A stretch of DNA of 50,873 bases, taken from the NCBI GenBank assembly GCA_015069335.1, contig SVIU01000005.1, positions 1 through 50,873 on the forward strand, read 5' to 3'. The notes under the pieces were generated by a model. That model did not search any database, was not told where the DNA came from, and saw only the letters and a list, made by a program, of their open reading frames with translations. Of the stretch, positions 1 through 50,873 are shown piece by piece. The first letter of the stretch is position 1. Each line of letters opens with the position of its first letter. The DNA is from Clostridiales bacterium (GTDB lineage Bacteria > Bacillota > Clostridia > Christensenellales > UBA1242). The position numbers were made by a program, and so were the translations under genes.

Positions 1-87
1 GCTACACCCTTTGGGTGTAAAATGCCTCTGGCATTTTTGTTAACCGATTTCTTGTAACAAAAAACCTCGCCGAATAGCAAGGCTTTG

Positions 88-196
88 TGGCTCCTCGAGT
101 CCGATTCGAACGGACGACCTATCGGTTTAACTCCGTCTTCGACTCCGTACGCAGAAAACTTGAAAGTTTTCTTGGCGCCCAGCCCCGTGCTCCACC
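88..196 (-). pseudogene. Interrupted tRNA-Asn copy: truncated 5' part, insert of about 50 nt in the anticodon loop, intact 3' half with CCA
   Basis: 3' half identical to the tRNA at 293-367; 5' part GGTGGAGCAC; between them GGGGCTG[GGCGCCAAGAAAACTTTCAAGTTTTCTGCG...GGAG]TTAAACCGAT. Confidence 0.75.
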
Positions 197-263
197 TCGC
201 ACTCGGCTACACCCTTTGGGTGTAAAATGCCTCTGGCATTTTTGTTAACCGATTTCTTGTAAC

Positions 264-286
264 AAAAAACCTCGCCGAATAGCAAG
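264..286 (-). terminator. Rho-independent terminator downstream of tRNA-Asn
   Basis: Minus strand CCTTGC-TATTCG-GCGAGG followed by TTTTTT; also present at 59-81 in the upstream duplicate. Confidence 0.75.
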
Positions 287-292
287 GCTTTG

Positions 293-367
293 TGGCTCCT
301 CGAGTCCGATTCGAACGGACGACCTATCGGTTAACAGCCGAGTGCTCCACCGCTGAGCTATCGAGGA
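293..367 (-). tRNA. tRNA-Asn (GTT), CCA encoded
   Basis: Minus strand reads TCCTCGATAGCTCAGCGGTGGAGCACTCGGCTGTTAACCGATAGGTCGTCCGTTCGAATCGGACTCGAGGAGCCA; 7-bp acceptor TCCTCGA/TCGAGGA, anticodon loop CTGTTAA, T-arm GTCCGTTCGAATCGGAC, CCA end. Confidence 0.93.
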
Positions 368-412
368 ATATTAAATTGTGGTGAGTGTCGCACTCGACTA
401 TTAACCGAAATT

Positions 413-504
413 GGTTTAACTCCGTCTTGCGACTCCGTACGCAGAAAACTTGAAAGTTTTCTTGGCGCCCAGCCCCGTGCTCCACCGCTGAGCTATCGAG
501 GGAT
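413..504 (-). pseudogene. 5' half of a tRNA-Asn fused to the same hairpin insert
   Basis: Minus strand TCCCTCGATAGCTCAGCGGTGGAGCAC followed by GGGGCTGGGCGCC...GTTAAACC; no 3' tRNA half follows. Confidence 0.7.
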
Positions 505-586
505 ATTGGTTGCTGATTAAACAATCAAAGCAATAATAACACTTTGTCACGTGCTTGTCAACAATTTTTTAAAGTTTTTTTAAAAT

Positions 587-1141
587 TTATAAAGTTTTTT
601 CTTGAGATCTAACTATTGTTGATTGGTTTTGATATGCTTGTGCTGATTTTTGTTGTTCTTGCAAATGTTTATCGCTTATTGCAAACATTTGCTCTAAGAG
701 TTGCGGTTTTTTGAGTTCTTCAACCCATTTTTCTATCTCACCTGACTCATGCAATTTTTTAAATTGTTTATGCTTCATATTAAATTTGTTTATTGATTCA
801 AACAAAAGTTTCATGTTGTCTCTTGACAAATAAATAACTGGCGTTGTTGCTGTCATCCCCAAAACGGTAAACACAAAAGCCCATTGTAGGCCAATAATTG
901 GCAAACAAATTCCGCCCAAAACAAGGGTGCTTATAAACAACTTGTTAAACAGTTTTAAACGCCTTAGATTTTTTTCATATTTTTCTTTTATATCTCTATA
1001 TTCAAACGCTAAGCACAAACGTTGTTGTTGCGTTAACTCTTTTTTTCTCATAACTCCCCAAGTCCTTGGAAATATTTTAATATAAGGCAGAGCGTTTGTC
1101 AATATGGAATTCTCTAATAGTGTTTCTAGATTAAAAATCAC
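587..1141 (-). CDS. Hypothetical protein with two predicted TM segments; true start may be MRKKEL near 1051
   Basis: ORF track; hydrophobic LFNKLFISTLVLGGICLPIIGLQWAFVFTVLGM segment. Confidence 0.6.
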   Translation of the reverse strand: MIFNLETLLENSILTNALPYIKIFPRTWGVMRKKELTQQQRLCLAFEYRDIKEKYEKNLRRLKLFNKLFISTLVLGGICLPIIGLQWAFVFTVLGMTATTPVIYLSRDNMKLLFESINKFNMKHKQFKKLHESGEIEKWVEELKKPQLLEQMFAISDKHLQEQQKSAQAYQNQSTIVRSQEKTL

Positions 1142-1162
1142 GATTTTACAAACAATATATTT

Positions 1163-2518
1163 ATGATTTTAAAATTTATTCTCTTTATAAATTTTTTGCT
1201 TGTTTTTGTTGTCCTTGCTTACGAAATAAACAATAAAACACAACTTGTTCGTTGGAGTATGATAACTCTTTTTTTGCCGATTGTTGGCTTTTTAATATAC
1301 TTTGTTTTTGGAAATGGATTAAAAATGAAATCGGCAAAAAGACTAAAATATTACAGCTTTACAACCAAGCACTATCTATCGCAAACAAATTGGTTTAATG
1401 AAAAAACAAAAAATAATCTAGCCGAAACCAAAATTTATATAAATGGTAAAGACTTTTTAAATGACTTACTTAAACAAATTGCCAAAGCAAAGCTCTTTAT
1501 TTTTTTGGAATTTTATATTTTAGCAAGCGACAAAACAGGCAAAAAACTTTTTGACTTGTTGGCTAAAAAAGCACAAACGGGAGTAAAAATTAAAATTATT
1601 TATGATGGTGTTGGCTCAAAAAAAACATCAAACAAAATTTGGACTTGTTTAAAAAATTATGGTGTGGATGTTATGCCGTTTTTTCCTCCAATTATTAACA
1701 ACACATATATAAATACGCAAATAAATTATAGAAATCACAGAAAAATTGCAATAATTGATGGCAAAATCGGCTTTGTGGGCGGAATTAACATTAGAAGTGA
1801 CCATATGGGATACGAAAAAAAGTTAAAGCCTTGGCGTGATACTGCCCTAAAAATAAATGGAGCTGCCACACATGATTTAACGACAACTTTTTTAAATGAT
1901 TGGCAATTTGTTACAAAAGCAAAAATTTCAAAAAATGATATTAATTATTTTTTTCCACAAATAGAATCACAAAAAGGCATTGTATTACACACAATAAATA
2001 GCAACCCCATTGACAAAAATAAAAAAATTTTAAATTTTTATATTAATCAAATAAAAAATGCTAAAAAATATATAATTGTTCAAACGCCGTATTTTATTGT
2101 GGACAATCAAATTATAAATTTGCTACTTGATGCTGATAAACGCGGCGTCAAAATTGCCATTTTTATACCCAAATTGGCTGACAAAAAACTTGTTTATGCA
2201 AACACTTTAATGTGTTTAAAAAGCCTTGTAAATTCAAATGTAAGTATATATTTATACAAGGGTTTTTTGCACTCAAAAGTGTTTATAACAGAAAATGTTG
2301 TTTCAATTGGCAGTTGCAATTTTGACAACCGCTCTTTTAAATTAAATTTTGAAACAAATTGTTACTCAAAAAATAAAAATTTTATTGAAAAAAATTTAAA
2401 AATAATTAAAAATGACATAGAAAATTCCACATTGCTCACTAACAAATTATATAAAAAAATAAAAACAAAAAATGTTTTTTATATTGCCATGCACAAACTT
2501 TTTGTTAAATTTTTATAA
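1163..2518 (+). CDS. cls: Cardiolipin synthase (PLD superfamily)
   Basis: Two HKD motifs (HRKIAIIDGKIGFVGGIN; HSKVFITENVVSIGSCNFDNRSF) and N-terminal TM pair. Confidence 0.9.
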   Translation: MILKFILFINFLLVFVVLAYEINNKTQLVRWSMITLFLPIVGFLIYFVFGNGLKMKSAKRLKYYSFTTKHYLSQTNWFNEKTKNNLAETKIYINGKDFLNDLLKQIAKAKLFIFLEFYILASDKTGKKLFDLLAKKAQTGVKIKIIYDGVGSKKTSNKIWTCLKNYGVDVMPFFPPIINNTYINTQINYRNHRKIAIIDGKIGFVGGINIRSDHMGYEKKLKPWRDTALKINGAATHDLTTTFLNDWQFVTKAKISKNDINYFFPQIESQKGIVLHTINSNPIDKNKKILNFYINQIKNAKKYIIVQTPYFIVDNQIINLLLDADKRGVKIAIFIPKLADKKLVYANTLMCLKSLVNSNVSIYLYKGFLHSKVFITENVVSIGSCNFDNRSFKLNFETNCYSKNKNFIEKNLKIIKNDIENSTLLTNKLYKKIKTKNVFYIAMHKLFVKFL

Positions 2519-2539
2519 TTTTTAACATTTTTTATTAAA

Positions 2540-2580
2540 AAACAAGGCAATTTTCAAAAATAATGAAAATTGCCTTGTTT
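2540..2580. terminator. Convergent terminator between cls and the giant gene
   Basis: AAACAAGGCAATTTTC-N9-GAAAATTGCCTTGTTT, 16-bp stem, T run on the minus side. Confidence 0.85.
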
Positions 2581-2633
2581 AAAATTGTTAATGTGATTAA
2601 ATAACATTAATAAATTTTTGGCCAATAACAATA

Positions 2634-5600
2634 CTAAGCTGACGCAGGTTGATTAATTGTTTCTTCGGTAACTGTAACAGCAACCGTACTAGTACACAAA
2701 CCATACTCAACAGTCATTTCTCCATTTGTTATATCTTCATCTCCTGAAACAGTATATACAAAATTTGGAGTAATATATTCAAAAGTAAATATTTGTGTTT
2801 CATCTGTAGTTTTTAGTATAATGCTTCCACTAGACAATGTTTGCTCTTCATTGTTTACTTTATATTCGAACGCACTTGAAGGTATTGAATATGATGTTAT
2901 AACATCATCAGTTGTGTCTGGAGTCCCCTTTTGATCTATTGTTTTTGTTATGACTAGTGTTGGTGGTGGTGTTGTTGCATTTGTCAATATTATTTCATTT
3001 ATTCTTATTAACACAAACTTTTGTTCTTCTTTTATTTTTAATTGCATAACTTTGTTTGCTACAAACTCAGTTGTAGAAGCGAATGATGCAATTGCATTAG
3101 TACTAGAAGCAGAGTAAGCTGTAGGCTTGAAACTATCTATGCTAATATCTGAGGCTGTTATTGTTCCATTTGGAACAAGTCCATGCAAATCTACCTTATA
3201 ATCAAAACTATTGCTAGCTTGCTGCTTATACACATCTAGGATAATTGCACTTGTAAACACTATGCTTACTGTGCCAATTGGTTCGTAATCTGTGGTGTTA
3301 TTTGTGGTGTTATATTTGCATTTAACAATTAGTGTAATATAGTACTCATTTGGTTTGAATCCAGTTTTTAGTGTTATCACACCAGCCTCTGTCACTTCAT
3401 ATAAATCTGAGGTATTTGCAACTTCAAATTTAAGGTCGGCAGAATTTGTTGTAAATGTTTTATCTTCATTTTGAGCTAAAATATCAGATACGCCACTTCC
3501 AGTTTTTAATTCGAAGGCACCGTTTATGCCAGTATTACCAGAAGCCCATTGTGCAAGCGTAATGGTTGTCGGAGTAGAAATCGCATTGTTTGTATCTAAA
3601 GAAAGATCAAGATATACACGATGCACAGCCTCAGGCAAATAAGCTTTATCTGTGTTTATACCTGTATATTTTAATGTCACATTAACCTTGCCTTTCTCGC
3701 CTGTAATTTTAGATATTGCATTTTTAGTTGTGTCCGAATTCGCCACATATTCTTTAAATACAACATCAATATTCATATCAGTTTCTTGGTATTTAATACC
3801 ATCTTTTGTTGATTCGAATTTTGTTTTTGTTAATTCTCCAGTATACGTGCTTGTATCGTCAGCAGTATCAGTAGGGGTTGTATCATTGACTTTTAAGCTT
3901 GATATATTTTTTGCCAATTTTGCATGTGCAGGTGTTAAACCGTTTACTATTGTAATACATGTGCACCCATCAGGAGATGTGTGGTTGCATTTGGTCAATG
4001 TCGCACCATGTGTAGGACTTGATTCTTCAACTTTTCCTGTAAATAATTTTACATCTTTGTCAATAAACACACTGTCATATAACGCAATTGGTGCATTAAT
4101 TCCCGCTGCTATATTTTTTGTGTTGCCATTTATGTCTGTAAAATAGCAATAATAGTAAACAACATTGTCAACTTCAAGTGCCAATCCCATATTATCAGAC
4201 GACAAAACATTAGCACCTACCCAAATATTAATATTGGTGATTGTTTTGATATTAAGAGCATTAACCACCGTGCTACCACTAGTAATATTTACAACTGTGT
4301 TTTCTCTATTTTTTCTTTCTTTATTATTGTATATTTTAACATCAAAACTATGATTATTTTCTGGTGTAACATCCTCACTAAACAAACCACCTTTTATACC
4401 CAATGGAATTTTTATACTAACAACATTTCCTGATTGGATTGTAGGTGTAACATATCTGGTAATTGTAGAATTATCAATACTGCTTGTAGCGATTATACTT
4501 AATTTAATTGCCAAGTCTGTAATGAGATATGAAGATGAGGATGGAGATGACTTTTCATTTCCATCGTGGGTTAATTCTGCTGTCCATGAGCCGTCTTTTT
4601 GGCGATCTGATGTATCAATTGCTTTAACCTTGATTTTCTGCTCACGGTCTAGTGTAATAGTTGTTGGAATAGTAGTTACCTGCACTTCAGCAGCTGTGTC
4701 AATTTGATAAATATATGCATTAGCCCCAGTTACTGGACCCCATGACACTTTGCCGTCAGCTGCTATGGAAACAACTGGTCTACCAAGTGCTTGTGCGTGT
4801 GGCGGTGTAAAGCCAACCGTTTCCAAATTATTCCAAGCAGCTGTTTTTTCTTTTTCGTCGCCATTAGAATTATTTACAATTGCCAACTGTTCGTTTATAT
4901 ATGTAGTTAATGATGTGCTAGTTCCACTATCATATACAATATTGTCCAAATCTATATCAGCCATCAGCGTTTGTGTTTGTGTCAATTCTGGACGGCCTAA
5001 TTGTTTTTGTTGTTTATTATCAAAAACATCTACAAAATGTTCCATTTCTACTTCGAAGCCATCACGAATATATGTGTTTTCCGGTTTTAATTCTAGTTTG
5101 TATTTTTTTATAATGACAATATCTACTGTAAACACATAATCTTCTGTACCAGTACCAAGTTTAATTTTTACCTTTAAATATCCATTGATGCTTGCACCAT
5201 TGCCATGGGTAGACCACAAACTTTCTTCTAAGAATGAAAAATCTATTTCTTTTGAGGCTGTGTCTACAACAGCAGCTTTTGGTATTTGTATATCACCTTG
5301 TGCTTTTTTCACCCAAAACTCAACAGCTTGTAAAACAACCTCTTGAGTTGTTTCATATGTTTGATCACTGTTGCTGTTTATGGTGATACCAATACCTTTT
5401 TTGGTTGAATTTGAACTTACTTTAGCGTTGTAAACATCCAAACTATCACCCTCATAAATGTTTCCGCCTACATTTAAAGTTGTGTTTACAACCTCTTTGC
5501 TTGCAACAAATTTTATATAATAAACAAACTCAAAGCCATAAGAATCATAAAATTTTATTTCAATAAGTTTGCTACCAAGTTGTGCTTGCTGAGTGTAAGA

Positions 5601-8600
5601 AACTATAATTTCGTAATCGCCAGTAGTTAAATTTGTTCTTCTTACACAATTAAAATAAGCTGAATAATCTGCCCCGCCAACACTTGTTGCTGAAATATTA
5701 AATGATTGTGCTATGTTTTTACGATTTGATTCTAAATCATGTATGCTGTATACATGAATATATTTTGTAACTGTTTTGCTTGTTAGTACTCTAGTATTGT
5801 TTGTTGAATCAAATACAAACAAATATGGATTATTTTGTGAATTTTCCGTTACTGGAGAGTCATTATTGCGTAGTTCCACAACAAGATCAGAGACAACTTT
5901 TACTGTGAGAGAAATCTTAATTGAATGTTCGCTAGTTGCAGTATAGGTAAATGTTAAATTTATTACGCTTCCATCATTTTTTGCACCCAATGCTTTCAAA
6001 AGGAAATCATTCACTTCACCATTTGGTTTGTGTTCTCTATAGATTAAACTTTGGCTACTATCATCTATACTTAAAGATATCTTTCTGTTTTCACCAATTA
6101 AATTATTATAGCCAAATTTGTTGCCTTGAGTATCTTTTACCATAAATGTTTCTATAAATGAAACACCGTCATCACCATTTGCATTTGCAACCAATACAAC
6201 TTCTTGGTCTTTGTTAATATCGATATCGTATTTATACAATATCTTACAATCCCCAATTGCTATATCATCACTTGCCAATTTGATTCCATCATCTAATACT
6301 ATTTCATACAAGTTGCTTTCTATTTGATCATTTGTCCACGTATAATAAGTTGTAATGTCAACATCTTCAACAACATTTCCATAATCTTGATATCTAATAT
6401 CAAAACCATTATATTTTAATGTTGCTCTTGGTTTGATTTCAAAATCATCACGCTCTAACTCTACATCATATGTTTCTGAATTTTCGTCAACAACTTGCAT
6501 CATAATTTTAAAGTTATTGTCATAATCAGAAGTTGCCATTACAGTCCTGATTTTGCTTGCTTGAGAATAATATACACCCTCTATTAAATTAACATCAGTT
6601 TTTGTTCCATCCGCGTAATCCACATAGAAGTTTACTTTTGAAACATCAACACCTTCGGCTACTGCTGGCATTGTAATAATAACATCTAGATTGCCAAAAA
6701 CATTGTCATCACCATAAGATACATAAACTATGGTTTGATTATTGTCTGCTTCAATTGAATATAATCCACTATTCTTTACAACAACATTGTATGTTCCATA
6801 CACAGCGCCACCAATCTTAATATTGAACTTGAGTGTTTTTTCCAACTGACTATCGTCTATATCTGATGTATCAAAAGTGGATACAACTTCTCCATTTTCA
6901 TCAACTATGTCAACACCTGTAACAGGCGAACCGTCCTTATCTGTAACTATTATTCTTGGTTTGCCATTAATATTGTTTGCTGAAAAATCTAGTATTTGAC
7001 CTTTTTGAAGATATTCACACTGCCAAATTTCCTCTTCTTGATCAGCATTGTTTACAACAATAGGATAATTAATTTTAACAATATATTCTGGATTTGCCTC
7101 AAATTGTGCATATGCAACTGCTATTATTGTGCCTTGAGCGTCAATTAATTCAACTTTTAAGACCTTTGTTATCTCGCTAACAATAATACCCAAGTTGTAG
7201 TCATATGTTCCTGTATCATAATCCACTACTGTATTTTCGATTTTAATTATTAGAGATTCATAATCTGCATATGCAACTGGTGGGTTTGAATCTTTCGATG
7301 CATCTTCAAACAATTCTCCCAACAAGGTTTTTACTTGAGCATTTGTTAATTGTATTTTGCTGTTGTCCGCTATTTGATAATTTGTATTTTCAACTGCCAC
7401 AAATGGGTTATTGATGTTTGTGTTGTTTGATCTCACTAATTGATTTACTTCAACATTGGCATGGTTTATAACAACATCATAACTTTTGCCATCCTTTTGA
7501 ATAGTTGCTCTTAAATCCAAATTGAATTTTTGTTTTGCAACATTATGAGGCAAGTGTTTGAAATATACTTTGTTATCAATGATATCATAACCAACACTAT
7601 TGCTATCTATCAATTCAATTTGTGAAACGGTGTAACCAGTCATTTCAAATAACTCACCCAATTCATAACTTGTGTTTGACCAAATTTTAACACCACTTTG
7701 TAATTCTTTAAAATTACATGCAGCTCCCATATTTGCAGTAATTGTAGTCAAAACACCATAAATTGTATAAAGTTCTATTGTAATTGTTGTGCTTGTTGGT
7801 TGAGCAATAAATGTGATTGTTTTTGCTGTAGGATCAACATCGGCATATTTTTCATCCTCGTCAATAACATTATCAAAATATACTCTAGCAGATAAATTTT
7901 CTTGAGTTGCAATGCTATTTAAATAATAATTGAATATTATAGCTTCATTAACAGTTGCGCCCAATGAAGAATCAAATGCTATTTTATTTCCGTTGGCAAC
8001 TTCGAATGTGCCACCATTTTTGCCAATAGTGGTTGCGGAGCCCGATATATTTCCTTCTGTATAACGTTGTCTTAGTAAAGGCATGCTAGGAATTTCACCA
8101 GCTGATACATAATAATAATTTACTGAGCCATTGGTTGTTGATATTTTTATCTTAACTCTTATATTTAGAGCAATTTCATTAAATATGCTTAAATCTCCAG
8201 TAGCAATATCTAATTGTGCAAGGTTTGATATTTGCTCAGCTGTAGCCATACTCCAGCCATTACCTTGATTGAAATAAACTTTTTCTATTTCAAATTTATA
8301 ACCGACATAACTGCTTTGCAATTGATAGTTTTCATCCTCACCTTTTTGGTATACAGATAAACGTTTGTATTTTGGATCTAATATGTTGGTTTTTGCTTCA
8401 CCATTCATATCAAATGACAAATATTCCATATACGATTTTAAACTAGCAAAATTGCCACCCATTAAATCTTTGTCAAAGTCTTCACTTCCATAAGTTTTAC
8501 TATTTACAACTGTATCTGTTGAAACTTCTTCAGTTCCAAAAGGATACGAAATGTGTAATTTTTGTGTTTTATCAAGTTTGATTAAAACAGGAACTGAAAG

Positions 8601-11600
8601 ATATGTTTTGAGGTTTGCATTTAAACGTCTTGTGTTTACATTAACAATTGCGTAAACATTATCTTGGCCTATCGGATCAATTTCTAATGTGATTTTGTAG
8701 TTGGTATCATCCCCTATTTTGCTCACTTTTAAATATGATGTGTCATTTGAAGTGTTTATCATTTTAAAACTTGCAATATCATTAGAAGTGGTTGAATTGA
8801 TTTCGTTATATTCTAGTCCAGCAACAACGTTATTAAAGACACCATTTTGGTCAACTTTGTCGAAAAGAACTAGTTTTTCACCAGCTGTAGCATACTCATT
8901 TTCATCATTATTGTCATACGTGGTTGTTAAATAAATCTTGTTGTCAGAACAATACTTAAACATATTTTCTGTGTCTTCAAAAATTTTGTAAAGATCCAAA
9001 TTTGAATAGTCTATTACTGGTTTGTATGTATTATCACGCGTATCAAAATATGTCAATTTGACAAATGGGAATTTCAACTCGCTTATAACTATTTGATAGG
9101 TTGTACTTATAGAATGTTCGTCAGTTAATGTTAATGTTCCGGCTTCTGTAAACAACTTGCTAGCTGACAATTTTACTGTGTAGTCTGTTGTGCTTCCACT
9201 ATTTAATTCTGCATAATAACCATAAAAACCTGTTATAGTTATTGTACCTTGTGTAAACATTGAACTAAATGTTGTATTGCTTACAACATCACCATTATTT
9301 ATAATTATTGCTTTTTGATCATTGTATAAAGCAAATGTACCGGAGTTTTGTAAGTTTGTTGGCACAATATTTAAGATAATTAATCCACCCAATACTGTTC
9401 CTTCTAGCGTTATATTAAATGCAATTGTGATTTTGTTTTCAAAAGCACCAAATTGTAAACTCACTTTATTGTCGGTTTCATCATAAGAATTGCTTGTTAT
9501 TATGCTGTTGTTTGGATATCCTGTAATGCCATCTTTATTTACAGAAATTACATCTGCAAGATCTGCTTTTTTAAATGACGTTACAGCTATTGCTTCTCCA
9601 TGAGCCACTCTTACAAAATAATCTGAAATAGGTAAAGTTAACGTATTACCAGTTAAGCTTACGGTTGTTGCTCCAGGATTTTTTAATTGCAAACTTTTGT
9701 TAACTTTAAATTGCAATGGGTAGTTTAAATCACCCACCGAAAGAGTTGTAACATTGCTTAGATATATCGTTATAGACTCAACTGAATCATCTGCAAATGT
9801 CTTTTTAAATGTGAATTTTTTTAGTCCCGCTGAAATATTTTCAATTGTTTCTGCCGTATCACCATCTAACCACAAATTATCACAATTTGCTGTTATTTCA
9901 ATTGTATATTCGATTCCCGTATATACGTTGTAAATTGCACTTTGTTGATCTTTTGTTACTTCACCACTGATTGTCTCTGCTTGGCTGTTTTCAAAAGAGT
10001 ATGAAACGTTTTCTGCAGAAATGATTAAGTTTGGTTGAATATTTAACTCAACATCTTGATATAAATTTAATGTTTCTTCTATATAGGTTAAACTTAATGA
10101 TACTGGACTACCTAATAATTTTGTAATTTTGATGCTACTTATTGAGTCGCCCTCTTTATAGCTGGCAACACCCATAATATTGTTTAACGCGACGGCTGTG
10201 GATTGATTAGAAATTTTAACCGTCAACTTTAATTGTTTTTCGGTTTCTGTAGGAAGCTTATACCACATATTAAACAAACCAGTTACATCTGTAAGAATGC
10301 ATTCATCGGTATAAACATCATTCGCATTTAAATAAATGTTAATTTTTTCATAATTATAATTTTCGTCTGTTGGAACTTCTTGAGTTTCACCACTTGGAGT
10401 ATCAATTTGATATTTTGAAACATAACCAGAACTCAAAACCTTTATTTTAAATGATTGTTGCAATTCATCTATTCCGTTTAAATATAACGATATGGTGGCC
10501 TCTTTTTGATCTTGGCTGGAATAAACAAAATCTAAAACTGTGTCATTTAAAATTTTAACACTATTATCATTTGAAACAAGTTTCCAACCCTCTGAGGTTG
10601 GTGTGCTAACGCCCAAGAAATCTTCTATATAAACATTAACTACATTTGATCCACTTTGAGTTATTGTTATGTCTTCTAATATATCGCCATTTTTCATTTT
10701 TGCAGTGAAAGTTCTTTTAAAACTGCCGCCCTCAAAAATTGTTGCAACTTCTATGTACTCCAATTGATCCAACTCAAGCCTTGTCGCAGCTGGGTTAACA
10801 TTATCTTGGTATGTAAACACAAAATATGCTTTACTGTTTATATTTTGAATAATACTAATTGTACTTGTTTTGCTATTGTTGCCCATATCATAAACATGAT
10901 CTATTGGGAACAAATATTCTTTGCCCTGTAATATGTATAAGAAATATAGTCTAACAACAACATCATTATCGACAACAATTGTTGATATGTCAAAATAGTA
11001 ATTATTTACTCCCTCGCTGCCTAATGTACTTTTAATATAATTTGTAGCAATATTTTTTTGTGTTCTAGCAACAACACTAATTGAGCCATCTATTAAGGCA
11101 TTGTATATTGCTGTTTTTTGGCTGTCGGTCAAGTCAGTCAAATTTATACCAACTCTTAAAACATTTTCTGTGTTTTGAGCAATTTTAAATACAACAGGCT
11201 CACTATTGGTTACACCAGCACTGCCATCCTTTAAATATGTGATTGCTCCTGAAATTGTTGAAATTGATTTTGTATAAGTAATTTCTAATGACGACAAAGA
11301 TTCATTTAAACCCTCTTGTACAGAAGAATATTTTACAAACACATATTTGCCATCGCTGATAACTGGTTGTCTTAAGGCATTTGTTTTGATGGTTGCAAAC
11401 ATAACTTTTACTGTTACCGCTGGAATTTCAGAACCTTTTAATTTTAAGAAATGGCCATCCAATTCAAATAAATTTTTTGATGCACCGTTTATTAAATATG
11501 TTTGTGGTTTTGTATCGGTTGTATAAAAGTAGTCTGACAACGTTTTGCTGCCCTCGGCTATAGCGTCATCTGTATAAATAAAGAATTTGTATGTTTGATA

Positions 11601-13466
11601 TGTGTTGTTGGCATCAATTGAAATCAATTTTGACAAATCAATTTCTGAATTTAGTTTTATTTGATTAATTGTTTGGTCATAACCATCAGGATTTACATCT
11701 TTTTCCATATCAATAACATTAGACATGTCTATAATGCTTAATGCTAATGGTGCTGTTTGTGTCCATGTTACACTTTCTTCATTGCCCTCCACGCTTGTTA
11801 AGTTGAAAATCTTATAAGAATTTTCTTGGACAATTTCGTTTTTTATTTCTCCATTTGAAAAGTATTCAATTACAACTCTAATGTCGTTTGTAATATGAAC
11901 ATCACTATAAACTTGCCAATAAGCATTTTGATATGTGGTTTGATCGCCAATTGGAAAATAATATTTTTGTGTAGTGTTTCCATTTGGTATTTCTTTTGTT
12001 GTATAATCATCACTATTTATAAACTTAATTTCGCTTGCATCAACCCATTGGTTGCCTAAAAATTTTTCAAATCTAATACCAACATTTAGGATTTTGTTTT
12101 GCAAGTCTATTGAATTCATGTTTGGGTTTGATATTTCAATTTTTAAGTGTGAGGTATGTTTTGCGTTAACTCCGTCTTTTGATGCATATATGGTATGTAT
12201 CATATCTGGCGAGAAATTATGCATAGATCCATTAATGGCAATGTTTGTAACCTCAACGTCAACAATATTGAATTCTGCTGTTTTTTTGATTATTGGCTTG
12301 TCTTGTACTGTTTGTGCTTTGTAAAGGTCTTCTAATTTTGAAACACGTTGATAAAATTCTTCTGGCAATTCCAATATAGTGAGTTCTTCTGATTTTGCGT
12401 TATCAAACAAATAAGCATAAACACCCGATTGTTTTTCTTGAGCCCAATTTTGAATATCTGTTGTTGCTTGAAATTTTAAAAGATTTGTTCCTGGAACAAT
12501 CCCTAAGTTTGTCAAATGTTGAATTTCGTTTTCAACAATTTCGCCCATTATATAATATTTTAAACCGTTAGAAAATTGTTGATACAATTCATTAATTTGA
12601 TTAACATAAGCTGCATCAATGAGGTTGTTTGAAACAATGCTGTTTAACAAATCGTGCATATCAACAAAATCTTGCGCTTTGATTGAATTGTTGTCGAGGG
12701 AGTTTAAAAATTCATAAAAGTCTTGTACTGTATAATTTAAGCCTTGCATTCCTCCTGCGTTGATTTGATCAAATATTGATTTTATTTCATCAAAATATTG
12801 AGCAATAAAAAAGTCTGATGAAATTTTTGAATATTTAAATTGACTTCTTGCTGGAGAATATTTAATGCCCATATAAATTGTTTCTCCAGCATTTATTTCA
12901 TAATTATCAGAGATTAGAGTTTTATATGACTGGTCTTGAAGATTTTCACCCAAACCCATATCGCCATTTATAACAAATATGTTTGCATCATATACTGGCA
13001 CATCAACAAATATTTGAGTTGTTGCCTTTTCTGTTGTTACGCACTCTGATGTTGCCACCAAATTTGATATACCACCAGCAATCCACTCTATTTGCGCATT
13101 GTTTTCATCAACAAAACCGTCATTTGCTGTTGTGGCCAATTTGACATTTATAGGTTCATTAATTTTTGCATTTTTTGGCACTATAATAACCCCATCGGTA
13201 ATATGATTTGCACCATATGGGGTTGAAGCAACACCATTTCCAAAAGAAAGAGTAATGTTGTCAACCGTAACATTTTCTGTTGTGGTTGTTACTTTGATTT
13301 GGAAATTTTCTACCGTTTCATAACTTTCAAATTCAAAAGAAATTTTTTCTGGATTGATAATTTCTTCCTCAAAACTGCCTGTTAAATACATTATTCCAAA
13401 GCTTGCACCCAATACAACTACTAGAGAAGCTAAGCATATTGCAAATATTTTAAAAAACCTTTTCAT
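2634..13466 (-). CDS. Giant (3610 aa) predicted exported or membrane-anchored beta-rich surface protein
   Basis: Single uninterrupted ORF; N-terminal MKRFFKIFAICLASLVVVLGASFGIMYLTG signal/anchor; T/S/N/D-rich beta-type sequence; FN3-like segment; no LPXTG or C-terminal TM; RBS AAGGAG. Confidence 0.85.
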   Translation of the reverse strand: MKRFFKIFAICLASLVVVLGASFGIMYLTGSFEEEIINPEKISFEFESYETVENFQIKVTTTTENVTVDNITLSFGNGVASTPYGANHITDGVIIVPKNAKINEPINVKLATTANDGFVDENNAQIEWIAGGISNLVATSECVTTEKATTQIFVDVPVYDANIFVINGDMGLGENLQDQSYKTLISDNYEINAGETIYMGIKYSPARSQFKYSKISSDFFIAQYFDEIKSIFDQINAGGMQGLNYTVQDFYEFLNSLDNNSIKAQDFVDMHDLLNSIVSNNLIDAAYVNQINELYQQFSNGLKYYIMGEIVENEIQHLTNLGIVPGTNLLKFQATTDIQNWAQEKQSGVYAYLFDNAKSEELTILELPEEFYQRVSKLEDLYKAQTVQDKPIIKKTAEFNIVDVEVTNIAINGSMHNFSPDMIHTIYASKDGVNAKHTSHLKIEISNPNMNSIDLQNKILNVGIRFEKFLGNQWVDASEIKFINSDDYTTKEIPNGNTTQKYYFPIGDQTTYQNAYWQVYSDVHITNDIRVVIEYFSNGEIKNEIVQENSYKIFNLTSVEGNEESVTWTQTAPLALSIIDMSNVIDMEKDVNPDGYDQTINQIKLNSEIDLSKLISIDANNTYQTYKFFIYTDDAIAEGSKTLSDYFYTTDTKPQTYLINGASKNLFELDGHFLKLKGSEIPAVTVKVMFATIKTNALRQPVISDGKYVFVKYSSVQEGLNESLSSLEITYTKSISTISGAITYLKDGSAGVTNSEPVVFKIAQNTENVLRVGINLTDLTDSQKTAIYNALIDGSISVVARTQKNIATNYIKSTLGSEGVNNYYFDISTIVVDNDVVVRLYFLYILQGKEYLFPIDHVYDMGNNSKTSTISIIQNINSKAYFVFTYQDNVNPAATRLELDQLEYIEVATIFEGGSFKRTFTAKMKNGDILEDITITQSGSNVVNVYIEDFLGVSTPTSEGWKLVSNDNSVKILNDTVLDFVYSSQDQKEATISLYLNGIDELQQSFKIKVLSSGYVSKYQIDTPSGETQEVPTDENYNYEKINIYLNANDVYTDECILTDVTGLFNMWYKLPTETEKQLKLTVKISNQSTAVALNNIMGVASYKEGDSISSIKITKLLGSPVSLSLTYIEETLNLYQDVELNIQPNLIISAENVSYSFENSQAETISGEVTKDQQSAIYNVYTGIEYTIEITANCDNLWLDGDTAETIENISAGLKKFTFKKTFADDSVESITIYLSNVTTLSVGDLNYPLQFKVNKSLQLKNPGATTVSLTGNTLTLPISDYFVRVAHGEAIAVTSFKKADLADVISVNKDGITGYPNNSIITSNSYDETDNKVSLQFGAFENKITIAFNITLEGTVLGGLIILNIVPTNLQNSGTFALYNDQKAIIINNGDVVSNTTFSSMFTQGTITITGFYGYYAELNSGSTTDYTVKLSASKLFTEAGTLTLTDEHSISTTYQIVISELKFPFVKLTYFDTRDNTYKPVIDYSNLDLYKIFEDTENMFKYCSDNKIYLTTTYDNNDENEYATAGEKLVLFDKVDQNGVFNNVVAGLEYNEINSTTSNDIASFKMINTSNDTSYLKVSKIGDDTNYKITLEIDPIGQDNVYAIVNVNTRRLNANLKTYLSVPVLIKLDKTQKLHISYPFGTEEVSTDTVVNSKTYGSEDFDKDLMGGNFASLKSYMEYLSFDMNGEAKTNILDPKYKRLSVYQKGEDENYQLQSSYVGYKFEIEKVYFNQGNGWSMATAEQISNLAQLDIATGDLSIFNEIALNIRVKIKISTTNGSVNYYYVSAGEIPSMPLLRQRYTEGNISGSATTIGKNGGTFEVANGNKIAFDSSLGATVNEAIIFNYYLNSIATQENLSARVYFDNVIDEDEKYADVDPTAKTITFIAQPTSTTITIELYTIYGVLTTITANMGAACNFKELQSGVKIWSNTSYELGELFEMTGYTVSQIELIDSNSVGYDIIDNKVYFKHLPHNVAKQKFNLDLRATIQKDGKSYDVVINHANVEVNQLVRSNNTNINNPFVAVENTNYQIADNSKIQLTNAQVKTLLGELFEDASKDSNPPVAYADYESLIIKIENTVVDYDTGTYDYNLGIIVSEITKVLKVELIDAQGTIIAVAYAQFEANPEYIVKINYPIVVNNADQEEEIWQCEYLQKGQILDFSANNINGKPRIIVTDKDGSPVTGVDIVDENGEVVSTFDTSDIDDSQLEKTLKFNIKIGGAVYGTYNVVVKNSGLYSIEADNNQTIVYVSYGDDNVFGNLDVIITMPAVAEGVDVSKVNFYVDYADGTKTDVNLIEGVYYSQASKIRTVMATSDYDNNFKIMMQVVDENSETYDVELERDDFEIKPRATLKYNGFDIRYQDYGNVVEDVDITTYYTWTNDQIESNLYEIVLDDGIKLASDDIAIGDCKILYKYDIDINKDQEVVLVANANGDDGVSFIETFMVKDTQGNKFGYNNLIGENRKISLSIDDSSQSLIYREHKPNGEVNDFLLKALGAKNDGSVINLTFTYTATSEHSIKISLTVKVVSDLVVELRNNDSPVTENSQNNPYLFVFDSTNNTRVLTSKTVTKYIHVYSIHDLESNRKNIAQSFNISATSVGGADYSAYFNCVRRTNLTTGDYEIIVSYTQQAQLGSKLIEIKFYDSYGFEFVYYIKFVASKEVVNTTLNVGGNIYEGDSLDVYNAKVSSNSTKKGIGITINSNSDQTYETTQEVVLQAVEFWVKKAQGDIQIPKAAVVDTASKEIDFSFLEESLWSTHGNGASINGYLKVKIKLGTGTEDYVFTVDIVIIKKYKLELKPENTYIRDGFEVEMEHFVDVFDNKQQKQLGRPELTQTQTLMADIDLDNIVYDSGTSTSLTTYINEQLAIVNNSNGDEKEKTAAWNNLETVGFTPPHAQALGRPVVSIAADGKVSWGPVTGANAYIYQIDTAAEVQVTTIPTTITLDREQKIKVKAIDTSDRQKDGSWTAELTHDGNEKSSPSSSSYLITDLAIKLSIIATSSIDNSTITRYVTPTIQSGNVVSIKIPLGIKGGLFSEDVTPENNHSFDVKIYNNKERKNRENTVVNITSGSTVVNALNIKTITNINIWVGANVLSSDNMGLALEVDNVVYYYCYFTDINGNTKNIAAGINAPIALYDSVFIDKDVKLFTGKVEESSPTHGATLTKCNHTSPDGCTCITIVNGLTPAHAKLAKNISSLKVNDTTPTDTADDTSTYTGELTKTKFESTKDGIKYQETDMNIDVVFKEYVANSDTTKNAISKITGEKGKVNVTLKYTGINTDKAYLPEAVHRVYLDLSLDTNNAISTPTTITLAQWASGNTGINGAFELKTGSGVSDILAQNEDKTFTTNSADLKFEVANTSDLYEVTEAGVITLKTGFKPNEYYITLIVKCKYNTTNNTTDYEPIGTVSIVFTSAIILDVYKQQASNSFDYKVDLHGLVPNGTITASDISIDSFKPTAYSASSTNAIASFASTTEFVANKVMQLKIKEEQKFVLIRINEIILTNATTPPPTLVITKTIDQKGTPDTTDDVITSYSIPSSAFEYKVNNEEQTLSSGSIILKTTDETQIFTFEYITPNFVYTVSGDEDITNGEMTVEYGLCTSTVAVTVTEETINQPASA

Positions 13467-13558
13467 AATTACTCCTTAAAATTTGGAAAAATATTAAAAA
13501 ATATTAAAATAAATTAATTTTAAATAAAATAATTTAAGAAATTTTAATTTCGCTTATA

Positions 13559-13587
13559 ATTATATAATTATTGTTTGTTAAAGTCAA
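13559..13587 (-). promoter_or_regulatory. Sigma-A-like promoter of the giant gene
   Basis: Minus strand TTGACT-17 nt-TATAAT (-35 at 13582-13587, -10 at 13559-13564), about 90 nt upstream of the ATG. Confidence 0.75.
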
Positions 13588-13742: not shown

Positions 13743-15368
13743 ATGATGGAAGAAAAAAAATTGCCAGATATCATTATTGAACCACAAGATGTGACAGAGT
13801 TGCAGCCGGACACTCAAACTGAAACAAAAACCGAAATCACACCAGCCACAACGCCAGAAAACGCAACCGATGTTCAAACTGATAAACCTGTTGAAACTCA
13901 AGTTGAAGATCAACCAGAATCGCCAACAGAAAAGCAAAACGAAACAACCAATGAGGAACATCCTAGTGTTATTGTAGAGGTTCCAAACGAAACACCAGTT
14001 GATGCACAAACTGATACTCAAGCCGAAGCACAAACTGGAACTCAAGCCGAAGTTATAACTGATACCCATGACGAGACTCAGCCTCAAACACATGAATCTG
14101 AATCTCACAGCGAAACAACACCCCCTAAAGCTCAAACAGCAGTTTCAACTCCAAAAAAACAACCGAGCGAACCAATAATTATTGAACACTCATCAAGCAA
14201 AAATAGTAAAACTAAAGGTGACGCAAGAGTTACCGTTGAACGCGCAGAAAGAATTGTTGTTGAGGGTGATCCAGCCACTGCCTCAGAATTGTTAAAACTT
14301 GTAAAACAACCAACCACAACCAAGAAGAAAACTTCTACAAAAAAGACTAGTTCAGCAAAAAAGAGCAGCACCAAAAAACCAAAAACTGTTGCACCAATAG
14401 AGCCTATACAACATGCTGAACCAGCTCCAGCAGAAACACAAAAAGTTGAGCCACAAACCACCCCTAATCCTGACACAAGCACAAAACAAACACCAGCATC
14501 AAATGGTGGGGCAGGCAACAATGACGAAAAAGAAAAACCACAAGTTCCAATTATTTCCGGAACAGTTTCTGGGCTTACAGCTATTGTTTTTGGACTTATT
14601 ATGCTAGCAGGATTTGTTAATCCTTTAATGATAATTATTACACTTGTTGCAATGTCTGCTTCCGCAACTTCGTTTACTTTTGGTTCGATACAAATGAAGG
14701 ATGCCAAAACAGCTCCTAAAAAAACTGCCAACAAGCAAGCAGAAAAGCAAAGTAAACAGCAAAAGAAACAAGAGAAAAAAGCAGAAAAGCAAATGACTAA
14801 ACAAGAAAGAAAAGCGAGAAAGCAACAAAAAAGCAAAACTCCTGAGTTGATGGCTACAACATTGGGCGATGCTATTCCTGCACAATCAGAACACCCATCT
14901 CAAGATCAAACTCCTTTGGCTCCACAAGTTGATAAACAAGAAGGTTTGTTAAAATCTAGCGTTGAAGAACTAAACAAAATGTTTGGCCAATTTACCCAAA
15001 ACCCACCAAAAACACCTGATGAAATGACTGCATTTAGACAAGATGTTGCAACCTTGGCTCAAGGAATTTATGATCAAGGAATTGACACTTCTGCAAGCGA
15101 ACAAGACGCAAGACTTTTTCAATGCTGTGTTAATTATCTTAATGCAAACAACGCGTTGCAAACTATAAAACAAACCCCAACTGGCGTTGCTGAACAAGAT
15201 GAACAATCAATAAGAGATGCTTTGGCTGTTAGTTATGAAGCGTTAAGCGAATTGCAATCAGCTTCGCAACAATATACTCAAGAAACCATTGCAAAGCAAG
15301 CTCCTACCACACAAGAAACAACAACCAGTTCTTCTCAACCTTCGCAAGAACAAGAAAAAACATTATAA
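13743..15368 (+). CDS. 541-aa low-complexity protein: T/Q/E/P-rich N-terminus, histone-H1-like Lys/Ser/Thr tract, central TM pair, K/Q-rich stretch, helical C-terminal domain
   Basis: ORF with consensus promoter, RBS and terminator; TM pair VPIISGTVSGLTAIVFGLIMLAGFVNPLMIIITLVAMSASATSF. Confidence 0.85.
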   Translation: MMEEKKLPDIIIEPQDVTELQPDTQTETKTEITPATTPENATDVQTDKPVETQVEDQPESPTEKQNETTNEEHPSVIVEVPNETPVDAQTDTQAEAQTGTQAEVITDTHDETQPQTHESESHSETTPPKAQTAVSTPKKQPSEPIIIEHSSSKNSKTKGDARVTVERAERIVVEGDPATASELLKLVKQPTTTKKKTSTKKTSSAKKSSTKKPKTVAPIEPIQHAEPAPAETQKVEPQTTPNPDTSTKQTPASNGGAGNNDEKEKPQVPIISGTVSGLTAIVFGLIMLAGFVNPLMIIITLVAMSASATSFTFGSIQMKDAKTAPKKTANKQAEKQSKQQKKQEKKAEKQMTKQERKARKQQKSKTPELMATTLGDAIPAQSEHPSQDQTPLAPQVDKQEGLLKSSVEELNKMFGQFTQNPPKTPDEMTAFRQDVATLAQGIYDQGIDTSASEQDARLFQCCVNYLNANNALQTIKQTPTGVAEQDEQSIRDALAVSYEALSELQSASQQYTQETIAKQAPTTQETTTSSSQPSQEQEKTL

Positions 15369-39211: not shown

Positions 39212-40774
39212 TTATAGAGCAACGTTTCCGTCATTGCAAACAACTTGTGTTGCAGGAACTTGATAGTTCCAGTTTGCACCTTTTTGAATTGCATTCCATT
39301 GTTCCATTGTTCCTAAAAATTTTATTGTTGCAAGTTTTGTGCAACCTTTTAGTGCGTTCTCACTTATGCTTGTAGTTCCACTTGTGATTGTAAGTGAAGT
39401 AATTATTGTGTCGGATATGTTAGCGTATATTAAATAATGATGTGAAATATAAAATCCATCAAATGTTTTAAGACTTGAAGGCAATATTATTTCGGTAAAA
39501 CCAGTAAACCCAGTATCATCCGCCCAAATAGCATATGAATTTGTATTATAATAATTACTAAACGAACAAGCGTTATAGCTAGTATCATCCGCATCTAAAA
39601 ACTCAATTTCTTTAATAGCTGTAAAACTTTGTGGCAACACTAATTTTTTGCTTAAGTTTTGGCAAGAGGCAAAAGCAAATTCACCTATGTGTGTCAAAGT
39701 TTTAGGCAATTCGATTGTTGTAACTGCATAGTCCATATGACGAGTACCGCCCTCATCAATAGAATGGATGTTATTATCATGATACATTTCCATTGTACAT
39801 AAAGAATATGCACCAATTGTTTTTATTCCGTTGGCAAATTTTATTGTAGAATATCCGTTTAAGCCGATCGTACCATATATTTGATCACCACCCCATACAT
39901 GTTCTGAGCCAGTGTATTCGCTTTCATCAATGATGTTGCCTTCTTCATCCCAAAAAATGTTGGTATTTTCAAAATAATTATAGCAAATACCATCAATTTT
40001 TACATAAGAACCATTCACTTTCTGAAGTACCGCGGGAATGGTTATTTCCCCAGTTCCATTAGGAACATAATTGATATATGCTCCGTTTGGATAACAAGGC
40101 GTTAATACCAAATTGCCGTCATATTCGCAAAATTTTTGCTCAACAGAATCAATAACTTCATACCAATAACCATCACTCTGTTTTCCCACAACAGCTTGTT
40201 CTAAAACAAGTTTAAAAGTGTTGTTGTTGAATACTTCTGGTGTAGCAAAACTTTGCGTACTATTACATTTTAAAGTGAGTTGAATGGTGATTAATTCTTC
40301 TTCTAGCATTGTTCCACCAATTTGATCCCAACTTGCAATAATGTTGTTTTCTTGGAGCAATAGTTGGTCGTCAAGTTCTAAATATGCAACAATTGGAAAG
40401 TTTGATGTGTTTGTAATTGTAAATGTCATAACAATTTCAGGCGGTGTACTGCCGTTTGACAAATTAGGAAAAAACAGACTATTGAGATTTATTAGCAGGT
40501 CTTGACCATTAAGTAAAATCTCAGACTTAGTTGCGCTGCCCAAACCCGTGCCATCGTTTTGAACATATAAATCATTTTGTGCTTCACCCCCCTCGGTGGT
40601 TGCAGCGCCATCAACCTCGATGGTTATTGTTGCGTTGCAATTGTTGCCAACAAAGCCAATGTCGCCGTTTAAAAAAAGTGATGCCCTTTTTACAGACCAT
40701 ACTCCTATTGCAATTGCGCATACGCATAGGCAAAATGACACAATATTAAAAATAAATACAAGTTTTCTTTTCAT
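39212..40774 (-). CDS. BspA-like leucine-rich-repeat surface protein
   Basis: N-terminal signal/TM; LRR_5-type repeats (ELPKTLTHIGEFAFASCQNL; LTITSGTTSISENALKGCTKLATIKFLGTMEQW). Confidence 0.85.
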   Translation of the reverse strand: MKRKLVFIFNIVSFCLCVCAIAIGVWSVKRASLFLNGDIGFVGNNCNATITIEVDGAATTEGGEAQNDLYVQNDGTGLGSATKSEILLNGQDLLINLNSLFFPNLSNGSTPPEIVMTFTITNTSNFPIVAYLELDDQLLLQENNIIASWDQIGGTMLEEELITIQLTLKCNSTQSFATPEVFNNNTFKLVLEQAVVGKQSDGYWYEVIDSVEQKFCEYDGNLVLTPCYPNGAYINYVPNGTGEITIPAVLQKVNGSYVKIDGICYNYFENTNIFWDEEGNIIDESEYTGSEHVWGGDQIYGTIGLNGYSTIKFANGIKTIGAYSLCTMEMYHDNNIHSIDEGGTRHMDYAVTTIELPKTLTHIGEFAFASCQNLSKKLVLPQSFTAIKEIEFLDADDTSYNACSFSNYYNTNSYAIWADDTGFTGFTEIILPSSLKTFDGFYISHHYLIYANISDTIITSLTITSGTTSISENALKGCTKLATIKFLGTMEQWNAIQKGANWNYQVPATQVVCNDGNVAL

Positions 40775-48842: not shown

Positions 48843-50873
48843 CTAGTTAAATCTCGCCAAATTGCGACTTACATAAGTATTACGCAACAAATTAGCATTG
48901 TATTGCAAGTTTTCCGAGCTTGAAGCATCTTTTATTGTTACAGCCGTATCCGTTGGTTTCACATGGCTAGAGATACTTGCCCTCCAGCCATTTATATTTT
49001 TAAACTCAACACTGGTCAATTGATTGCAACCAGAGAACGCTCGACTGCCAATGCTTGTTACACTACTTGGGATGGTGATTGAGGTTAGGCTTGTACAACC
49101 AGAGAACGCAGAACCGCCTATGCTTGTTACGCTGCTTGGGATGGTGATTGAGGTTAGGCTTGTACAACCAGAGAACGCAGAACCGCCTATGCTTGTTACA
49201 CTGCTTGGGATGGTGATTGAGGTTAGGCTTTCGCAACCAGAGAACGCAGAACCGCCTATGCTTGTTACACTGCTTGGAATGGTGATTGAGGTTAGGCTTT
49301 CGCAACCAGAGAACGCATAACTGCCTATGCTTGTTACACTGCTTGGGATTGTGATTGAGGTTAGGCTTGTGCAACCAGAGAACGCAGAATCGCTAATGTT
49401 TGTTACACTGCTTGGGATGGTGATTGAGGTTAGGCTTGTACAATCAGAGAACGCAGAAACTGCTATACAAACAACATTTGTTGTATCAAATGCACCAGAA
49501 AAACTTGTTGGAACGCTTATTACAATCTTCTTTCCATCTGAGCAGGTGTAAACACCATTGCTGTTTTCTTGTAAATTAGTTAAGAATGGAGTACCATAGA
49601 ACGCGTCATAGTCTATGCTTCTTACACTGCTTGGGATGGTGATTGAGGTTAGGCTTTCGCATTCATAGAACGTAGAATCGCCAATGCTTGTTACGCCGTT
49701 TTCGATGGTAACTGAGGTTAGGCTTGTACAACCATAGAATATATTATCGCCAATGCTTGTTACACTGCTTGGGATGGTGATTGAGGTTAGGCTTGTACAA
49801 TCATTGAACGTAGAATTGCCAATGCTTGTTACGCCGTTTTCTATGGTAACTGAGGTTAGGCTTGTGCAATAATCGAACGCATCATCGCCAATGCTTGTTA
49901 CACTGCTTGGGATGGTGATTGAGGGTAGGCTTTCGCAACAATAGAACGCATACTGGTCAATGCTTGTTACGCCGTTTCCGATGTTAACTGAGGTTAGGCT
50001 TGTACAATCAGAGAACGCAGAATTGCCAATGCTTGTTACGCTGCTTGGGATGGTGATTGATGTTAGGCTTGCGCAATAGAACGCATAGTCGTCAATGGTT
50101 TTTAAAGTGTTTGGTAAGTTTACTGTTGTCAGTGGAATTTGCCCCGTATAGTTCGCATCAAAAATACTATCTGGAATTTCTTTAATTCCATTTTTAATGG
50201 TTACCGTTTCAAGGTTTTCCATGCAAGTATTATTGCCATATTTCGCAAACGCTTCACTAGTTAATTGTACTGTGCCTGGCAAAATAAGTTCATGCATCGA
50301 ATATGTTCCTTCATAAATATCATAAACGCCGTAGTCGTAATTCACTTCTGTATATTCCACGTAAAATGGATAGTTATAAGAAAGATCCACCAAACCATTT
50401 GCAAGTTCTACTGTTTCATAAGTGTCAAGGTTTAAAACACCACCATACAAGTAGATAGTTTCAGTCCGAGAATCTTCACCGTTGTCAAATTCAATCTCTT
50501 CTTCTATTGTCGCACTTGTAATTCCGTGAACTTTAATGTATGACTCGTCTTGCTCTTTCAATACAGCAGGAATAATAATTTTACCATTGTCTTCTGCTTT
50601 TTCTGCTGGAACTTGATTGATGTAATATTTGCCATTTTCTTCTTCATATAAAAACTTGTCGTCGCCCACAGTGCCTACAACCGCTTGCTCTAAGTTTAAT
50701 TTAAAAGATTCTGCAGTGATTACTTCTGCAGCGGAAAAACTTTCATTAGTGTTGCATTTAAGTGTTAAAACCAAATTAACTGATTCGTTTGCTAAAAGTG
50801 TTTGACCCCAAAGGTTCCAATCTGCCAAAATTTGTGAGGTGGCAGGATTTAGCAGTTGCTCGCCAATGTCAAA
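48843..50873 (-). CDS. BspA-like leucine-rich-repeat surface protein, N-terminus beyond the window edge
   Basis: LRR_5-type repeats (SLTSITIPSSVTSIG..AF) x13; frame stays open to 50873 (DIGEQLLNPATSQILADWNLWG), matching the paralogue at 39212-40774. Confidence 0.9.
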   Translation of the reverse strand, partial: FDIGEQLLNPATSQILADWNLWGQTLLANESVNLVLTLKCNTNESFSAAEVITAESFKLNLEQAVVGTVGDDKFLYEEENGKYYINQVPAEKAEDNGKIIIPAVLKEQDESYIKVHGITSATIEEEIEFDNGEDSRTETIYLYGGVLNLDTYETVELANGLVDLSYNYPFYVEYTEVNYDYGVYDIYEGTYSMHELILPGTVQLTSEAFAKYGNNTCMENLETVTIKNGIKEIPDSIFDANYTGQIPLTTVNLPNTLKTIDDYAFYCASLTSITIPSSVTSIGNSAFSDCTSLTSVNIGNGVTSIDQYAFYCCESLPSITIPSSVTSIGDDAFDYCTSLTSVTIENGVTSIGNSTFNDCTSLTSITIPSSVTSIGDNIFYGCTSLTSVTIENGVTSIGDSTFYECESLTSITIPSSVRSIDYDAFYGTPFLTNLQENSNGVYTCSDGKKIVISVPTSFSGAFDTTNVVCIAVSAFSDCTSLTSITIPSSVTNISDSAFSGCTSLTSITIPSSVTSIGSYAFSGCESLTSITIPSSVTSIGGSAFSGCESLTSITIPSSVTSIGGSAFSGCTSLTSITIPSSVTSIGGSAFSGCTSLTSITIPSSVTSIGSRAFSGCNQLTSVEFKNINGWRASISSHVKPTDTAVTIKDASSSENLQYNANLLRNTYVSRNLARFN
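49030..50110 (-). repeat. Tandem 69-bp LRR coding repeats, homogeneous and alternating blocks
   Basis: GCTTGTTACACTGCTTGGGATGGTGATTGAGGTTAGGCT recurs at exact 69-bp spacing (e.g. 49053, 49122). Confidence 0.9.

Follow-up and report, generated by a model that had tools for sequence, protein, structure and literature searches.

The window, as we call the whole stretch of 50,873 nucleotides that was analysed, contains one very long open reading frame, which in the open reading frame listing runs from an ATG at 13466 down to 2634 and comprises 3610 codons plus a stop. The gene is 10.8 kb long and takes up ~1.1% of the 1.01-Mb assembly. The initial annotation had reported the interval without a strand. 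Its coordinates were right, and the gene must lie on the minus strand because the plus strand, over these positions, is dense with stops and has no open frame. Nor is the frame a product of chance, because many genomes carry intact orthologues without internal stops. The gene is preceded by a ribosome-binding site and, further upstream, by a promoter-like sequence, and lies between a convergent and a divergent neighbour (Table 1). Promoter-like sites overall showed no excess over shuffled sequence in the consensus scan.

Table 1. Features of the giant gene and its two neighbours, in window coordinates.
Feature	Position	Strand	Basis or remark
Cardiolipin-synthase-like PLD protein	1163..2518	plus	convergent with the giant gene; PLDc_2 and PLDc_N Pfam matches in a cluster member
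Giant predicted surface protein gene	2634..13466	minus	single intact ORF, 3610 aa; full-length orthologues in the same genus
Variable C-terminal end, residues 3401-3610, putative distal tip	2637..3266	minus	lowest alignment identity
Long beta-rich body, residues 166-3400	3267..12971	minus	alignable across genera; 15-sequence and three-way alignments
Conserved membrane-proximal N-terminal domain, ~residues 33-165	12972..13370	minus	most conserved part; W-x-x-G-G and VDVPV motifs
Predicted N-terminal membrane anchor, ~residues 7-28	13383..13448	minus	hydropathy; charge bias; A-x-A rarity
Ribosome-binding site AAGGAG	13472..13477	minus	sequence read, just before the ATG
Promoter-like TTGACT-17-TATAAT, 11/12	13559..13587	minus	consensus scan only; not evidence of function
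541-aa protein with central membrane hairpin and low-complexity E/Q/T/K-rich ends	13743..15368	plus	divergent, head-to-head upstream of the giant gene

The predicted protein contains little cysteine (0.4%) and has a net charge of -190. The initial annotation had described it as rich in T, S, N and D, as belonging to no known family and as free of the near-identical repeats that recent expansion would have left, and all three descriptions agree with our results. The four residues are indeed frequent, and the protein had no significant match among Pfam, NCBIfam or PDB sequences. Because Pfam found almost nothing in 30 diverse homologues either, present libraries evidently cover this protein family poorly. 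At the DNA level, TRF detected one 23-bp array only, and no direct repeat exceeded 77% identity over 30-43 nt. HMM-HMM self-comparison of the protein gave no internal pair above 15% probability, the best being residues 2086-2163 against 1590-1697, and we consequently rejected an internal-repeat architecture. The analysis revealed neither a strong match to any characterised adhesin nor signs of a cytoplasmic location, the two outcomes that would have overturned the view of the protein taken in the same annotation.

Elsewhere in the window, two LRR_5 (BspA-type leucine-rich-repeat) proteins are encoded on the minus strand, at 39212-40774 and at 48843-50873. The two resemble each other over an N-terminal segment, 'LTLKCN...LEQAVVG', and the second, whose frame is open at the window edge, contains many near-identical LRR units.

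We then followed the giant through related genomes with a profile that defines the protein family and covers the N-terminal 166 positions, that is, the anchor and the N-terminal domain. The profile found the giant in 139 of the 197 genomes of the bacterial family and in 29 of its 42 genera, nearly always as one copy per genome; among good-quality genomes the count was 104 of 132. These numbers are lower bounds because at least one absence is a contig-edge artefact: genome G003, scored as giant-less, carries the 3' part of the gene where a contig ends, with the cardiolipin synthase gene next to it (L095, 6-6392, plus strand). In a search with the first 1000 residues, same-genus relatives were 31-43% identical and the matches in other genera were N-terminal. 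The initial annotation had proposed looking for same-length homologues in related genomes, and the same-genus open frames, of 3,680 and 3,398 aa, are of this kind; a third is truncated by its contig at 1,472 aa. Across the complete open reading frames that we fetched, length depends on the genus and ranges from 1,038 to 4,643 aa.

Outside the family, a sample of the order gave weak matches (E 1e-5 to 6e-4), mostly to the helix region and in short open reading frames. In the window genome (G000), the C-terminal 1000 residues of the giant have no paralogue. We read the giant as a single-copy gene, probably inherited vertically, that belongs to a family of gut Clostridia with reduced genomes. One of the weak matches to the profile, N-terminal in position, is a 434-aa protein from another family of the order (G239, locus L096, 4016-5320, plus strand). 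It is preceded by an open reading frame of at least 1,329 aa (12-4001, plus strand) that resembles another large surface protein and runs off the fetched stretch.

Hydropathy analysis revealed one strong hydrophobic helix in the giant, within residues 1-30, and none at the C-terminus. An internal hydrophobic stretch at residues 1346-1364 occurs also in the L023 orthologue and is missing from that of L024, and is for this reason probably beta. The charge before the N-terminal helix is more positive than that after it in 38 of 40 homologues, as expected for an N-in, C-out orientation. An A-x-A string near the end of the helix was present in only nine of the 40, and the G-x-F that immediately follows the helix is near-invariant and belongs to the most conserved sequence of the protein. 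Such conservation would not be expected of a signal-peptide cleavage region, which suggests that the helix stays uncleaved. As computed, the protein therefore has the make-up of an N-tethered surface protein, with one uncleaved N-terminal helix, N-in/C-out topology and a long soluble remainder. From this topology and its conservation throughout the family, we consider it very likely that the giant is tethered to the membrane and exposed on the outside, as the initial annotation had suggested.

If the helix were, on the contrary, a long, cleavable signal peptide, the giant would be a secreted matrix protein. The absence of a second anchor would fit such a fate, as would the A-x-A-like strings of the nine homologues; these strings are not conserved, however, and the highly conserved G-x-F beyond the helix does not look like a cleavage region. 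We regard secretion into a matrix as very unlikely, and return to a tethered protein.

How such a protein would be held at the cell surface depends on the machinery available to the cell. The only candidate for an LPXTG motif near the C-end of the giant is a chance string, 'IPSSA', with no C-terminal helix behind it, and neither Pfam nor NCBIfam gave a match to SLH or other known wall-binding domains. The giant therefore fails as an LPXTG protein and as an SLH protein, in line with the earlier observation that it has no LPXTG motif, C-terminal transmembrane segment or obvious cell-wall-binding repeats. Sortase (PF04203) had no match in the window genome, and was present in one of 36 genomes of the family; among 24 genomes that represent the order's other families, 11 have it. 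Because sortase is nearly absent from the family, the missing LPXTG motif is a trait of the lineage. The search for the penicillin-binding transpeptidase domain PF00905, by comparison, covered 98 genomes and matched every one of them, the window genome twice, and this excludes a wall-less cell in which the giant replaces the wall. With cell-wall transpeptidases universal and sortase missing in 35 of 36 genomes, a membrane tether is a plausible mode of attachment.

Conservation declines along the protein away from the anchor. When 15 homologues were aligned, identity to the window copy was ~0.4 at residues 1-100 and only 0.04-0.14 in the final 200. In the three-way alignment, the C-terminal end is missing from the L024 orthologue, and a genus-specific insert lies within the body at ~residues 210-310. 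AlphaFold, run on a three-row alignment (window, L043 and L044), modelled residues 1-600 with a mean pLDDT of 35.6 and residues 395-585 with a mean pLDDT of 49.1, the latter mostly as strands; both models were too poor to reveal either an extended shape or Ig-like modules. A Foldseek search gave no match at E 0.001; the best, to CBM3b (E 0.0097), had a TM-score of only ~0.2 and was set aside. Among PDB sequences, the N-terminal profile also matched Biofilm-associated surface protein (7dm0 and 6m3a, E 0.016 and 0.17). These matches were set aside as weak, and no single stretch of the best of them was significant.

A tethered giant with these properties might serve as a structural envelope protein, forming a surface coat or a spacer between membrane and wall without binding a specific ligand. 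Its near-universal single copy in the family is what such a role would lead one to expect, and so are a body that can be aligned end to end and the membrane-related genes beside it. Yet a more than fourfold range of length among genera and a poorly conserved distal end would be odd for a coat lattice, and the giant has no SLH or S-layer domain. We therefore think a structural coat unlikely. The same gradient, with a conserved base and a variable end, would suit a fibre that reaches outwards from the membrane, which is the reading that we prefer.

The giant occupies conserved positions in the genome, beside genes related to the membrane or the cell surface. The cardiolipin-synthase-like gene adjoins it in ~14 genomes, the window's among them. 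In several genomes both genes share a strand and the synthase gene starts 11-29 bp downstream of the giant, with a 4-bp overlap in one; in the window, L023 and G003 its orientation is opposite to that of the giant. It encodes the only PLDc_2 protein of the window genome; as there is a single such enzyme, its linkage to the giant may be plain synteny. On the other side, the position and architecture of the membrane-hairpin protein are common to eight related loci, and the window's protein is too dissimilar to those in the eight loci for BLAST clustering. Neither the cardiolipin synthase nor the hairpin protein points to adhesion.

In other genera, the giant is found between rpsD-rpoA-rplQ and spoVT with a flippase gene, and usually adjoins a lipoprotein gene. 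The lipoproteins form a family of ~460-1,480 aa encoded immediately upstream of it in one genus set (L032, L033, L037, L083, L094 and others). They carry Big_2 or comparable Ig-like domains, and Big_2 scored in six of 11 members. Homology between the N-terminal domain of the giant and these Big_2 lipoproteins was considered and rejected, as HMM-HMM comparison gave no alignment. spoVT and the polysaccharide-type flippase gene are retained downstream of the giant despite genome reduction (L032, L033, L037, L038 and others); the sporulation genes of UBA1242 have been termed unexpected (PMC12306168).

The window genome, at 1.01 Mb, is typical of its family, in which most genomes are near 1 Mb; those of other families of the order are larger. 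purF was below the cut-off in all 36 family genomes, and its matches, near 100 bits and in ~600-aa frames, look like GlmS-type proteins. F-type atpD exceeded the cut-off in none of the 36, and flagellin was not found in the family. Glucose-6-phosphate isomerase (PGI) is missing from the window genome and present in nine of 36 family genomes, compared with 24 of 24 others. UBA1242 (Christensenellales) has been described as having reduced genomes that lack F-type ATPase, nucleotide synthesis and flagella, with dependence on a partner proposed, and PGI was reported as lacking (PMC12306168). The family is probably UBA1242, as it agrees with this description in size, purF, atpD, flagellin and the number of genera (> 40) and imperfectly in PGI; there is further agreement with PMC13155120. 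A genome of ~1 Mb that has lost purF, F-type atpD and flagellin suggests dependence on other cells, as was proposed for UBA1242 (PMC12306168).

A cell in this position might use the giant as a nutrient-capturing or enzyme-bearing arm, whose distal part would bind or modify polymers and deliver them to the membrane. Key biosynthesis genes are missing from the family, and one homologue (G026, L079) has a transglutaminase-like domain (Transglut_core) near its C-end, at residues 2188-2295 of 2425, where the distal tip is predicted. Against this proposal, the window protein and most homologues have no enzyme domain, and in the loci that we read no transporter is paired with the giant. We judge it quite improbable.

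We favour a membrane-tethered contact fibre or adhesin, which we hold to be probable by a modest measure. In this model, the single uncleaved N-terminal helix would insert the giant into the cytoplasmic membrane, N-in and C-out, and the conserved first domain would form a base at the membrane. The beta-rich body of ~3,200 residues would span the peptidoglycan and present the variable C-terminal end as the distal contact tip. The fibre would thus hold a nutrient-dependent cell to its hypothetical partner bacteria, to food particles or to host mucus. We count in favour of this model the single-copy spread through the family, the uncleaved anchor pattern, the near-absence of sortase and the conserved base with its variable tip, together with the genus-dependent length, the membrane and surface gene neighbours, the one homologue with Transglut_core and the reduced genome. 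The extended shape, surface exposure and binding of the fibre are what we infer from these observations. Pfam recognised no binding domain in the window protein, and adhesion is suggested by analogy with other giant proteins and by the partner-dependent lifestyle; on these grounds we find such a role somewhat better than an even prospect.

Reduced gut Clostridia such as UBA1242 are uncultured and widespread, and dependence on other cells has been proposed for them; the literature that we found names no contact factor in these bacteria. Nor did we find, in the literature searched, anything relevant to this protein among work on giant surface proteins of gut Clostridia, or a description of a sortase-independent, N-tethered, single-copy giant that extends through a whole family of Clostridia. 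A single-copy giant in at least 29 of 42 genera, with predicted sortase-free anchoring, is a concrete candidate for such a factor, through which the attachment mode and target of these cells become directly testable.

Giant surface proteins are already known from reduced genomes. Giant1-5 of Apilactobacillus kunkeei are extracellular proteins of 3,000-8,000 aa, thought to act in cell interaction (PMC12863079), and like the window protein they are giant predicted surface proteins of a small-genome, host-associated member of the Bacillota. Five genes in a row encode these proteins, which combine an N-terminal beta-solenoid with alpha-helical repeats and have a patchy distribution (PMC12863079), descriptions that set them apart from a single-copy protein that is beta-rich by sequence and has an N-terminal membrane helix. 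Omnitrophota and other reduced symbionts similarly have very large, poorly annotated open reading frames, for which cell-cell adhesion has been proposed (PMC10066038), and the window giant resembles these in its size, its poor annotation and its reduced genome. The Velamenicoccus frame of the Omnitrophota, however, encodes 39,678 aa with 42 predicted helices, and such frames have been called poorly conserved (PMC10066038), whereas the window giant has a single helix, and its single-copy orthologues are conserved throughout its family. It would work much as the A. kunkeei and Omnitrophota giants do, but these analogies do not place it in either group. A bolder proposal, which we put forward tentatively and think doubtful, is that the giant may serve UBA1242 as a dedicated fibre for contact with the partner. 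It would be a single-molecule, N-tethered and sortase-free device linked to genome reduction; its likeness to the proposed adhesin giants of Omnitrophota and nanohaloarchaeal symbionts would be convergent, and its length would be set genus by genus to the partner surface.

Among surface proteins of known domain type, Big_2 was found in the neighbouring lipoproteins and, weakly, in one of the 30 homologues scanned; all of these, like the window giant, are beta-rich by sequence, but the giant itself has no Big_2 match. The thioester-domain adhesins are sortase-anchored stalk adhesins of Gram-positive bacteria (reviewed in PMC8092201). With them the giant would share its presumed role, that of projecting a tip from the membrane through the wall (PMC8092201), but its predicted anchor is at the opposite end, an N-terminal helix in place of LPXTG, in a family from which sortase is nearly missing.
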